Assembly (NCBI GenBank): GCA_947473475.1
Contig: CANJBZ010000022.1
Coordinates: 1 to 64,000, forward strand
Direction of reading: 5' to 3'
Source: Alphaproteobacteria bacterium
GTDB taxonomy: Bacteria; Pseudomonadota; Alphaproteobacteria; Micropepsales; Micropepsaceae
Length of the DNA: 64,000 bases
Every line of letters starts with the position of its first letter. Within the stretch, counting starts at the first letter, position 1. Below are positions 35,827 to 41,771 of this stretch, in pieces. The position numbers and the translations under genes are program-made. Below the pieces are notes generated by a model. It had not been told where the DNA came from. It saw nothing but the letters and a program-made list of their open reading frames with translations, and ran no database searches.

Positions 35827-35902
35827 CTCCTCCCCTGCGTAGCGTAGCGAAGCGGGGGAGGGGGACCGCGAAGCGGTGGAGGGGGCGGCGGCAGCGCAGC
35901 GG
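35827..35902. repeat. GC-rich CCTCCCC/GGGGAGG intergenic repeat
   Basis: CTCCTCCCCTGCG...GCGGGGGAGGGG and CGCGAAGCGG form stem-loops. The sequence resembles a dispersed intergenic repeat of GC-rich alphaproteobacteria, and a related block occurs at 36384-36455 on the other side of the cupin gene. Confidence 0.6.
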
Positions 35903-36383: not shown

Positions 36384-36455
36384 AGCGGCCAGCGCCCCCT
36401 CCGTCGCGCTGCGCGCGCCACCTCCCCCGTAACAACGGGGGGAGGAAAGGGAGGG
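36384..36455. repeat. GC-rich intergenic repeat downstream of the cupin gene
   Basis: GCGCCCCCTCCGTCGCGCTG is followed by the hairpin CCTCCCCCGT / ACGGGGGGAGG with a four-base loop (36421-36445). It resembles the 35827-35902 block in the opposite sense and may double as a terminator. Confidence 0.6.
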
Positions 36456-36513
36456 CATGACACTTCGGAAGAGTAATGTTACTGAATCGCATCGCTATTT
36501 TTCGGAGGGTTTT

Positions 36514-37431
36514 ATGAACGCGTCGAGGCTTGCTCTTTTGGCGTCCGCTGTTTCGGGCTTGGCGCTGTTGACCGTTGCGGATCAGGCGCTGGCGCAAAAC
36601 CCTCCTCCGCCGGATCATCCGGCGGTTACCGTGCATGGCCAGACCTTCACGCCGCGTTCGATCCTGTCCCGCAATATGGGGACGAAGGAAGACCAGGAAT
36701 CCCAGTTCCCGCCGCACAAGATCATCGGCAACATTTATTATGTGGGCACCAAGACTCTCAGCTCGTTCCTGATCGTCACCCCGCAGGGCAATATCCTGAT
36801 CGACAGCACCTATGAACGCAATGTGCCGGTGATCCAGAAATCGGTCGAGCAATTGGGCTTTAAATTCGCGGACACGAAAATCCTGCTCGGCAACCATGCC
36901 CATCTCGATCACATGGAAGGCGACGCCATGGTGAAACAACTCACCGGCGCGCAGGTCATTCACATGGCCGAAGACATGCCCGCGCTGAAGGACATCAAGC
37001 CGAGCGGCAAGGAGCACCCGATTGATCGCGTCATCCATGACGGCGATAAGGTGACGCTGGGCAATGTCACGCTGACGGCGCATCTGACGGCGGGCCACAC
37101 CCGCGGCTGCACCTCCTACACGACCACGGTTGCTGACGGCGGCAAGAGCTACAACGTCCTGTTCGGGTGCAGCTTGCGACCGGGCCTGACGGTTGCGCCC
37201 AACGTCGCCGAGGAGTTCACCCGGTCCTTCAAAGTCGTCCGTACGCTACCGTGCGATGTGCAGCTCGGCGATCACGGCGCGCAATATAATATGCTGGAGA
37301 AGTACGCGAAGCTGAAACCCGGCGCGCCCAATCCCTTCATCGACCCGGCAAGCTGCTTCGCCGAGGCGGACGTGGAAGAAGCGATGTTCCACGCCATCCT
37401 GGACGAACAGAAGGCGGCGCCAGCCCGCTAA
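36514..37431 (+). CDS. subclass B3 metallo-beta-lactamase-like exported hydrolase
   Basis: A 305-residue protein with a Sec signal peptide ending near ALAQ. MBL-fold zinc ligands are H128, H130, D132 and H133 in NHAHLDHMEGD, His in AGHTRGCTSY and His in LGDHGAQYNM. The GHTRGC-TSY and GDHGAQY patterns, and the spacing, match B3 enzymes, and all six ligands are present. Environmental B3-like proteins often hydrolyse other lactams or lactones, so a resistance phenotype is not implied. GGAGGG precedes ATG 36514. A strong terminator follows. Confidence 0.82.
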   Translation: MNASRLALLASAVSGLALLTVADQALAQNPPPPDHPAVTVHGQTFTPRSILSRNMGTKEDQESQFPPHKIIGNIYYVGTKTLSSFLIVTPQGNILIDSTYERNVPVIQKSVEQLGFKFADTKILLGNHAHLDHMEGDAMVKQLTGAQVIHMAEDMPALKDIKPSGKEHPIDRVIHDGDKVTLGNVTLTAHLTAGHTRGCTSYTTTVADGGKSYNVLFGCSLRPGLTVAPNVAEEFTRSFKVVRTLPCDVQLGDHGAQYNMLEKYAKLKPGAPNPFIDPASCFAEADVEEAMFHAILDEQKAAPAR

Positions 37432-37463
37432 GGTTTCATCCGGAATTTTGTAGTCGTGACAGA

Positions 37464-37499
37464 CGCCGTTTGCCCGTAACCAGGGCGAGCGGCGTTTTT
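37464..37499 (+). terminator. intrinsic terminator after the B3-type hydrolase gene
   Basis: Stem CGCCG...GCCC / GGGC...CGGCG (37464-37475 with 37483-37494), seven-base loop, then TTTTT. Confidence 0.75.
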
Positions 37500-37689
37500 C
37501 TTTGCGCGTGCCGTCCGGTGACTAAATAAGCGCCAGTGCCTAAATTGTGTGCAAATTACATTAGCAGGCACCACCGATACACATGAAAATGCCTGTAAAC
37601 AGGGCATATCCCGAGTTGACGCGATGGCACAGGCCTTGCTTTGCTGCGCTGCAACACCGGTCGTGCGGCAAGCCATGGAGAGCCAGAGC

Positions 37690-38493
37690 ATGAAGAAGAC
37701 GCAGATGAAATGGGCGCTAGGACTGATTGCCTCTTTGCTGATGGGAACAGGCGGAGCGGAGGCTGCTCCCCTCAAGATCGGCTACAGCGATTGGCCCGGC
37801 TGGGTCGCCTGGCAGGTGGCCATCGACAAAGGCTGGCTGAAACAGGCCGGCATAGATGCCCAGTTCGAATGGTTCGATTACTCCGCCTCCATGGACGCGT
37901 TCTCGGGCGGCAAGATCGACGGCGTGCTGGTGACGAACGGCGATGCCCTGGTCACGGGCGCGTCCGGCGGCAAGAGCGTGATGATCATGCTCACTGATTA
38001 TTCCAACGGCAACGACATGATCGTCGCCAAAGCGAATTTCAAAACGCTGAAGGATCTGAAGGGCCAGAAGATCGGCATTGAATTGGGTCTGGTCGAACAC
38101 CTTCTGCTGCTCGACGGGCTGCAGAAGAACGGGATGACCGACAAGGATGTGACGCTCGTCAACGCCAAGACAAATGAAACGCCGCAAGTCCTGGGGTCGG
38201 GGCAAGTCGCGGCGATTGGCGCGTGGCAGCCCAATTCCGGCATGGCCATGAAGGCGATGCCTGGTGCCCATCCTGTTTACACCTCCGCCCAGGCGCCGGG
38301 TCTGATCTACGACGTGCTGACGGTCAGTCCTTCCAGTCTCGCATCGCGCAAGGCTGAGTGGCAGAAACTCGTGAAGGTGTGGGACCGCGTCGTTACCTAC
38401 ATCAACGATCCCAAAACGCAGGACGATGCTGTCAAGATCATGGCGGCGCGCGTCGGCTTACCAGACGTCGCCCAACGATCCGTTCGACCATGA
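37690..38493 (+). pseudogene. NitT/TauT-type binding protein, truncated at its C-terminus
   Basis: The frame begins with a Sec leader (MKKTQMKWALGLIASLLMG), then APLKIGYSDWPGWVAWQVAIDKGWLKQAG and DGVLVTNGDALVTGASGG, typical of ABC-type nitrate/sulfonate/taurine-class receptors. It is collinear with the family until about 38458 (residue 256, KIMAARVGL). After that the reading frame gives only 10 unrelated residues, while another frame becomes a quinoprotein. Roughly 70-80 C-terminal residues are missing. No ATPase or permease gene is nearby. ATG 37690 is used; ATG 37675 is possible. Confidence 0.75.
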
Positions 38494-39277
38494 CAATGTG
38501 AACGCGCTGATCCTGGCGGATGTGAATGTCGCGGGCGCTTCGCGCAAAGTCGTGATGCAGGCCTCGCGCAATGGATTTTTCTATGTGCTCGACCGCGCCA
38601 ACGGCAAACTGCTGGCGGCGAACAAATATGTAAAGGTCACCTGGGCCGACAAAGTCGATATGGCGACGGGCCGCCCGGTGTGGTCCGAAGACACCAAGAA
38701 GATCATCAATGGCGTCGCGAAAATTCAGAGCTGGCCGTTCATTTCTGGCGGCACGAACTGGTTTCCGATGTCGTTCAGCCCGATGACAGGGCTCGCCTAT
38801 GTGAACACCTTCAACATGGGTGTGGAATACGAAACGCTGCCCGTCGATCAGGTGAAGAATCTGAAAGAAGGCGACCGCAGCGGCGGCGTCACAGTTCGGC
38901 AGCGCACCCTTTATCCCGATCCCGATCCGCGCGGATATCTCAAGGCCATCGACCCCATGACCGGCGCGGCCAAGTGGCAGACCGGGTTCAAGAGCCCGAA
39001 TTATTCGGGCACGCTGGTGACGGCTGGTGGGCTCGTCTTCACCGGCGAGTTGACGGGCGAATTTATTGCGGTGGATGCCGACACCGGCAAAATCCTGTGG
39101 CAGTTCCAGACACCGTCAGGAATTATCGGTCAGCCCGTCACCTGGGAGCGGAACGGCCAGCAATATGTAACCGTGACGAGCGGGATCGGTGGGGTATATG
39201 CCCGTCAGCCCGATCCGAATCTGACGCATGTGCCACACGGCGGGTCGCTATGGACGTTCAAGCTGCTGCAACAATAG
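38459..39277 (+). pseudogene. PQQ-dependent alcohol dehydrogenase, C-terminal half only
   Basis: About 272 codons match the C-terminal half of a PQQ-ADH beta-propeller. YQTSPNDPFDHDNV begins at the junction, then VVMQASRNGFFYVLDRANGKL, ISGGTNWFPMSFSPMTGLAYV and GGLVFTGELTGEFIAVDADTG. The N-terminal ~300 residues, with the Ca/lanthanide- and PQQ-binding parts and the signal peptide, are absent, and the upstream sequence is a different gene in another frame. It cannot be a working enzyme as assembled. It ends 17 bases before an MBL-fold gene. Confidence 0.8.
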
Positions 39278-39294
39278 TTGCGAGGGAGAAACCG

Positions 39295-40263
39295 ATGAAG
39301 TCACGTATCGCTATACTGTTCGCCGCCGCATCCACGTTTGCGATCGCGCACGCGGCAGCCGCGCCTGCGGGCGAGGGTGTGGAAGCCCATCTCGCCGCCG
39401 CCAAAGCTGCCGCGGCCTTCGACTTCACCGGCACGCTTGCGCGCGTCTGCATTGCGCCGGCAACCGGGCCGGGACGCGATGTGGCGCCGCCTCCACCGCC
39501 CGCGCGCGACACCTGGTTCACGGAACCCGCCAAGGTGTTCGACAATTTGTATTTCGTCGGCACGAAAATCCATTCCTCCTGGGCGCTGACTACCAGCGAC
39601 GGCATCATTCTCATCGATACGCTGTACGATTATGCGTCCGACGAAGCGATCGCGGGCGGGCTGAAGAAACTCGGCCTCGATCCGAACAATGTGAAATACG
39701 TCATCATCAGTCACGCGCATGGCGACCATGTTGGCGGCGCCAAGATGATGCAGGACCGCTTCCATTCGCGCCTTGTGATGACTGGGCTCGATTGGGACTC
39801 AATCGAGAAATCGCAGAACCAATATCCCAAGGGCAAACCCAAGCGGGATATCGTTGCGACTGACGGCCAGAAGATCATGCTCGGCGATGGCAGCGTGACG
39901 CTGATTACGACGCCGGGGCATACCCCGGGCACGCTGTCGTTTATCTTCCAGGTGAAGGATAACGGACGGCCGCTGACGGTCGCATATTCCGGCGGCACGG
40001 CCTTCAACTTCGTGAACGACGTGCCGCACTTTGATATCTACATCAATTCGCAGCGCAAGCTCGCGGACGCCGCAGCCAAAGCGGGCGCAACCATTCTGAT
40101 GGCGAACCATTCGGAATTCGATGAGGCGGTGACGAAGATCAAACTGATGGCGGCACGCAAGCCCGGCGAACCGCATCCCTTCGAGATCGGCCGCGAGGCG
40201 ATGGCGCGCTACTTCAAAGTTACCGATGAATGCGCCCAAGTCGCGCGTATGAAGCTGCAATAG
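39295..40263 (+). CDS. exported MBL-fold metallohydrolase
   Basis: A 322-residue protein with a Sec leader ending near AAAAPA. MBL ligands are H140, H142, D144 and H145 in SHAHGDHVGG, His in TPGHTPGTLS, and the late His in ANHSEFDE. NLYFVGTKIHSSWALTTSDGIILIDT is the usual lead-in strand. It is similar in plan to the B3-type protein at 36514, but lacks its GDHGAQY ending and is about 20 residues longer. Substrate unknown. GAGGGAGAA precedes ATG 39295. It sits between truncated genes. Confidence 0.82.
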   Translation: MKSRIAILFAAASTFAIAHAAAAPAGEGVEAHLAAAKAAAAFDFTGTLARVCIAPATGPGRDVAPPPPPARDTWFTEPAKVFDNLYFVGTKIHSSWALTTSDGIILIDTLYDYASDEAIAGGLKKLGLDPNNVKYVIISHAHGDHVGGAKMMQDRFHSRLVMTGLDWDSIEKSQNQYPKGKPKRDIVATDGQKIMLGDGSVTLITTPGHTPGTLSFIFQVKDNGRPLTVAYSGGTAFNFVNDVPHFDIYINSQRKLADAAAKAGATILMANHSEFDEAVTKIKLMAARKPGEPHPFEIGREAMARYFKVTDECAQVARMKLQ

Positions 40264-40344
40264 AGCATCGCAACTTTTTGGCACTACCCCCACCGGGCGG
40301 CGACGCTTCCATGCGTCACGCTCCGGTTTGCGCTGTTGCATTGA

Positions 40345-40921
40345 ATGAAGATTGCCACGTTCAACATCAACAATGTGAACAAGCGGCTGGGTAATCTGCT
40401 CGAATGGCTCGGTGAGGCGCGACCGGACGTCGTGTGTTTGCAGGAGCTAAAATCCACCGATGCGGATTTTCCCGAAGCAGCGCTTTCAAATGCGGGTTAT
40501 GGCGCGGCGTGGCAGGGGGGACTTGGAATGGTGTGGCGATTCTGGCGCGCGGCTGCGATCCGGTCTTCACGCGAAAATTTCTGCCTGGCGATCCCGGCGA
40601 TGCGCACAGCCGTTATATCGAAGCGGCGGTGAACGGCGTTCTGATCGCATCGCTGTATGCCCCGAACGGGAACCCGCAGCACGGACCGAAATTCGTCTAC
40701 AAACTGCGCTGGGTGAAACGTCTCGCCGTTCATTCCGCCGAGCTGCTTTCCGCGAACGTGCCAGTCGTGCTCGCGGGGGATTTCAATGTCGTGCCAACCG
40801 AGTTCGAAATTTATCCGACAACATCTTATTCCAACAACGCGCTGGTACAGCCGCCGGCGCGCGGTGCGTTTCAAATTCTCCAAGGGCAACGCTGGGTCGA
40901 TGCGATCCGCGATCAACCACC
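40345..40921 (+). pseudogene. xthA: exodeoxyribonuclease III, N-terminal part with a frameshift
   Basis: Starts MKIATFNINNVNKRLGNLLEWL and continues DVVCLQELKSTDADFPEAAL, typical ExoIII/APE1-family sequence with Asn and Glu metal ligands. At a run of six G (about 40516-40521) the frame moves: NGVAILARGCDP, IASLYAPNGNPQ and VLAGDFNVVPTE continue in another frame. It reaches WVDAIRD at ~40915 and then stops matching; the last ~70-80 residues with the essential His are missing. A different nuclease follows. Confidence 0.78.
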
Positions 40922-41251
40922 CTCGATTCCGGACAGGGGCCTGATTTTATCGCCTTGCGCGGCGATCCTTCCGACAAACTTCCAGGCGCGCCCGGCGTCG
41001 GCACCAAAAGGTGCGGCCGTGCTATTGCGCAAATACGGCACGCTGGAACAGGCGCTGCAAGCCGGACGCTTTCCAGCCGAGCGAAAAAAAAGCTGCTGCT
41101 CTATAAATCCATCACGACAATGGATCGCCGTGCGCCACTCCCCAGGCTACCGGCGCAGGCGCCAAATTTCGAAACCGCCGCAAAGCTCGCCCAGGAATGG
41201 GAGCTGAACGCCTTGGCAAAGCGCCTGGATCAGATAGCTGCGGCGCGCTGA
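40922..41251 (+). pseudogene. 5'-3' exonuclease (PolI-type) C-terminal fragment
   Basis: PDFIALRGDPSDKLPGAPGVG is the helix-hairpin-helix segment of 5'-3' exonuclease/FEN-type proteins. It continues across two frame changes at A-runs (AAAA near 41008, eight A near 41085) as GAAVLLRKYGTLEQAL and KKLLLYKSITTMDRRAPLP, and ends LAKRLDQIAAAR. Only the C-terminal ~110 residues remain, so the metal-binding catalytic half is gone. It is fused head to tail with the truncated ExoIII gene. Confidence 0.75.
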
Positions 41252-41358
41252 AAACAAATATGCCGCCGTTGATCTTCATCAATGCACCATGGGTGCGGAA
41301 GTGATCGATTGACGTCGCTTCCCAATTGCTCCCGCCCGTGTGTGTGGGCGTTGGTTGA

Positions 41359-41505
41359 CAGGGCGCGCTCCCCCAACGTGCCCTGTCAGCACTTTCCCAG
41401 GAGCTGACGCTTTACATCACGCCGATTATCTACGGCACATTCGGGCGCGAGAGCCTGCGTATGGAACGAATTCCCGCGCGGGACGTATCCGCTCCAGCAG
41501 CATAA
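41359..41505 (+). pseudogene. possible C-terminal remnant of an RND efflux transporter
   Basis: A short open frame reads ALSQELTLYITPIIYGTFGR and ends SAPAA. The LTLYITPIIY segment resembles the last membrane helix of RND pump proteins. It has no start codon in place and is only 48 codons. Recognition rests on one motif, so this is tentative. Confidence 0.28.
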
Positions 41506-41771
41506 GGAAAACAGTGGTGGCGCTCGTTGCGTCTTGTCAGTCCGGTACCGGCGCTCAATTCATTTGTGACAGATCATTGGCGCGCACGTTGATGCCGATC
41601 AACTTTCGAGCGGGGCATATCACTTAGCTCTAGTTCCTGCCCGCATTGGGCTGCGAACCGAATGTGTACGTACTTTTCCATAGGCATTCTATTCGTTCGA
41701 CATCTGTACCTTCGGCTGTTGCTTCCTATCTAAGTGCGAAGCGGGTTCTTCGGATACTGCGTAGGATAAAA

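Follow-up and report, generated by a model that had tools for sequence, protein, structure and literature searches.

The window analyzed here, a 64,000-nucleotide stretch from an alphaproteobacterium of the family Micropepsaceae (assembly GCA_947473475.1, contig CANJBZ010000022.1, positions 1–64,000), contains a site where a gene for a substrate-binding protein (SBP) runs directly into a gene for a PQQ-dependent alcohol dehydrogenase (ADH). The locus raises the question of whether this join is the scar of a deletion, an error of assembly or a new gene that is still in use. The features of the locus are listed in Table 1.

Table 1. Features of the SBP–ADH join, with coordinates in the window.
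Feature	Position	Strand	Evidence or remark
SBP, NitT/TauT-type (SsuA/NrtA-like), N-terminal ~80%, 256 aa	37690–38457	+	Pfam and TIGR profiles, relatives
Junction point	38457–38459	+	GTCGGC / TTACCAGACG
Out-of-frame continuation of the SBP reading frame, ending at TGA	38458–38493	+	without homology to the conserved C-terminal tail of the family
Mechanical ORF, 283 aa	38426–39277	+	opens with 11 SBP codons in the wrong frame and continues through the dehydrogenase remnant
Soluble PQQ-dependent ADH, C-terminal 272 aa	38459–39277	+	profile, structure-chain and congener alignments

Structure of the Two Remnants

The SBP gene starts with the ATG at 37690, and its homology to the family runs through 38457, in agreement with the initial annotation, which had placed the end of the similarity at about 38458. 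The domain is present, yet not at full length (about 290–330 aa expected): the product is matched by Pfam NMT1 (E = 6e-15) and covers positions 4–234 of 328 in TIGR03427 and 1–230 of 290 in TIGR01728. Alignments with intact Burkholderia and Paraburkholderia homologues are collinear up to residue 256–257 (KIMAARVGL). Past this point the SBP frame reads about 10 unrelated residues and then the TGA at 38491–38493. A scan covering 84,980 species genomes yielded 287 relatives of the SBP; 79 of the best 80 are 323–337 aa long and carry the conserved tail PEAYLPLLKGTKLL, while the sole exception among these 80 sits at a contig end.

Close relatives, for example from Parvibaculum sedimenti (locus L045), Burkholderia pyrrocinia (WP_258285418.1) and Paraburkholderia sprentiae (WP_027193608.1), are TIGR03427/TIGR01728-like SBPs of urea (guanidine) carboxylase clusters and are 64–74% identical to the window SBP over the first ~256 residues. 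Unlike them, the window SBP lacks the C-terminal ~70 residues, and its genome has neither a recognizable permease partner nor a full carboxylase. No close counterpart was found in the congeners. As judged by naming the ORFs by eye, the clusters of the relatives contain an apparent permease, an ATPase, a creatininase-like protein, a glutamine-synthetase-like protein and a urea carboxylase; existing annotation near SBP relatives also names urea carboxylase and proteins associated with it. In the window, the gene adjoining the SBP downstream is the ADH remnant and not the cognate permease. Many "urea carboxylases" are now re-read as guanidine carboxylases. The guanidine riboswitches revealed in two of the six SBP-relative loci scanned (L033 and L055) agree with this re-reading; none was detected upstream of the window SBP at E values up to 1.

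Downstream of the junction, from 38458/38459, another frame encodes YQTSPNDPFDHDNV, the second half of a PQQ ADH, as had been proposed from the sequence at the outset. Its first homologous base was placed by DNA alignment to two congeners (~77–78% identity), and the remnant reaches the usual C-terminus and the stop codon at 39277. It matches only positions 288–530 of 530 in TIGR03075 (4e-77), and its score of 260 bits falls below the curated cut-off of 480, compared with 617 bits for a congener orthologue. Similarly, the match to the 668-residue chain 1kv9_A starts at residue 286; the full eight-bladed propeller (~560–600 aa) is not present. The profile matches of both remnants are much too strong to be due to chance. 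The full-length orthologues in the two congeners (G002:C173 and G005:C302; PQQ-dependent dehydrogenase, methanol/ethanol family, TIGR03075) have 561 and 571 aa and are ~79% identical to the window ADH over its 272 residues. Compared with them, the window ADH keeps the normal C-terminus and stop, but the first ~290 residues are gone. With these it has lost the start codon, the signal peptide and the vicinal Cys-Cys (CCGIVN), the last two of which are seen in the N-terminal half of L004 and L005.

Thus, neither gene is complete, as the initial annotation had stated. Its further remark that both families are normally much longer holds for the ADH, which is short by ~290 of ~561 residues, and needs a small correction for the SBP, which is short by only ~70 of ~325. 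The mechanical ORF that spans the junction is not plausible as a functional gene.

Search for the Lost Halves and for the Joined Form

Both genes are truncated, and neither their missing halves nor two partner genes were found in the assembly, which is 99.0% complete and 0.3% contaminated. A search of the genome for the SBP tail did not recover it. For the N-terminal half of the ADH the genome holds paralogues only, the best of them 48% identical and located inside the 653-aa open frame of a different gene. The permease was not recognizable (best match 29%), and the best match to the urea (guanidine) carboxylase comprised only the biotin-carboxylase region, positions 1–427 of 1180. The missing halves are therefore not found elsewhere in this genome, as is expected for a pair of pseudogenes, although the assembly consists of 66 contigs and they could sit in small gaps.

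We also looked for the joined form and for linked intact genes in other genomes, and neither was found in 41 relatives, in 96 genomes of the family or in the loci of the best 80 of the 287 SBP relatives. The case named at the outset as one that would refute the proposal, a relative sharing the join, was thus not encountered in the 96 family genomes or the best 80 SBP loci. Intact SBP and ADH genes do occur in relatives but are never linked among the loci examined, and comparison with relatives, proposed as a way to see whether the two genes are neighbors, gave no case in which they lie side by side. In particular, no recognizable PQQ ADH relative was present near the SBP in the best 80 loci, up to 10 kb on each side. 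Among the 96 family genomes, only two congeners matched the ADH remnant with E values under 1e-80; in both the gene is unfused, and the downstream neighbors of the orthologues are unlike each other in the two. Viral contigs yielded no hit to the ADH alignment or to the exact junction sequence of 27 bases, and in the literature nothing specific on gene joins made by deletion was found.

Origin of the Junction

We infer that the two remnants were brought together by a deletion, that it was fairly recent and that both genes lost their function; the probability that the join is a deletion scar with both products dead is put at roughly 0.77. End joining with a few bases of homology at most would cause such a deletion, which would remove the last ~70 SBP codons, the first ~290 ADH codons and any DNA between them. 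The SBP remnant would be inactive because the conserved C-terminal segment is gone and the genome has no recognizable permease for the transporter. The dehydrogenase remnant would be inactive through the loss of the signal peptide and of the N-terminal half of the propeller, and the two remnants would remain in different frames.

In the DNA alignment, the junction letters GTCGGC|TTACCAG correspond to TGGCATTACCAG and TGGTATTACCAG in the two congeners. Judging from this alignment and from the codons that SBP relatives use at this point, the sequence shared at the junction may comprise a few bases at most, and a repeat search of 37400–41700 reported no long repeat there.

The initial annotation had suggested that one deletion removed the two gene ends together with whatever lay between. 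Deletion is indeed the best explanation, given that the lost halves, the permease and the carboxylase were not found, whereas the idea of former neighbors gained no support, the genes being linked neither in the best 80 SBP loci nor in the two congener loci of the ADH. Since no locus examined links the genes, a single deletion between former neighbors can only be proposed; the same picture would follow from two deletions in succession or from a rearrangement.

A chimeric contig had been offered as the alternative. Mixing of two organisms in the contig is unlikely because GC3 is similar on both sides (0.785 for the SBP, 0.746 for the ADH remnant and 0.75–0.785 for the neighbors) and because congener matches of 72–88%, mainly in G001, flank the junction (genes in 34.8–37.4 kb and 39.3–43.5 kb). 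The other possible artifact is a misjoin between two sites of one genome, or between co-assembled strains, in which case the living organism would carry both genes whole. Such a misjoin would fit the division of the assembly into 66 contigs and the lack of any relative with the two genes side by side, and the absence of stops in both remnants is equally expected of it. We nevertheless consider it unlikely, as the missing halves were found on no other contig of a nearly complete genome, the junction has no long repeat reported that could mislead an assembler, and base composition and relatedness are alike on both sides.

Compared with the congeners, the ADH remnant shows dN ~0.14, dS ~1.0–1.1 and dN/dS ~0.13, with zero stops in 271 codons. 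These values suggest that most of the ADH divergence arose under selection before the cut, and the clean frames of both remnants point to a deletion that was fairly recent relative to the divergence of the congeners. Either a recent deletion or a misjoin would produce this pattern, and it should not be read as a sign of a function for the remnant. The same open frames and the low dN/dS of the dehydrogenase part could also be expected of a functional novel fusion, or of a transcript for a truncated SBP and a half-propeller quinoprotein that is retained for some new function. Such an origin is very improbable: the two parts are not in one frame, the dehydrogenase has no start, no signal peptide and about half of its propeller missing, the form is absent from every other genome searched, and a low dN/dS is what a long period preceding the deletion would leave. 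That the junction is a retained product, with the truncated SBP or the 283-aa half-quinoprotein expressed in a new role, is hardly credible at all.

Neighboring Genes and Repeats

A second broken pair is located at 40345–41251, ~1.1 kb downstream of the ADH remnant. Here a gene of the exonuclease III type is split over two frames (40345–40632, then another), and behind it comes the C-terminal portion of a 5'-3' exonuclease, likewise split over two. The genome contains an exonuclease III relative elsewhere, in an open frame of 290 aa, while the 5'-3' exonuclease piece was unmatched, at E values up to 0.001, in the six congeners and in the rest of the genome. This second pair supports the existence of a local decay zone and speaks for the deletion reading of the join.

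Between the broken pairs lies a gene of the metallo-beta-lactamase fold (39295–40263) that looks intact; it has no match within the SBP-relative loci. Upstream of the SBP, the gene at 36457–37431 contains a HAHLDH motif, scores 250.5 against the cut-off of 240 bits of NF033105 (NCBIfam, subclass B3 metallo-beta-lactamases) and has a 72% identical relative in congener G001. At 41390–41480 a short stretch looks by eye like the C-terminus of an RND efflux pump (ELTLYITPIIYGTFGRE) and is possibly another remnant; the ORF tested there had no Pfam match.

Intergenic repeats of 60–70 bp, found at 35828–35900 and 36388–36450, have dozens of copies in the genome (83–98% identical), and at least one of them has relatives in several congeners. 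These dispersed repeats were considered as mediators of the deletion and rejected, since they are located at ~35.8 and 36.4 kb, away from the junction.

Implications for the Genome

The main consequence is for annotation: this genome should not be credited with a working transporter component or a working alcohol dehydrogenase on the strength of either ORF. The join marks a small decay zone at ~37.5–41.3 kb whose gene pieces are mostly without close congener counterparts. It is a fresh instance of known gene decay, most likely of an ordinary and commonplace kind that makes no new protein.
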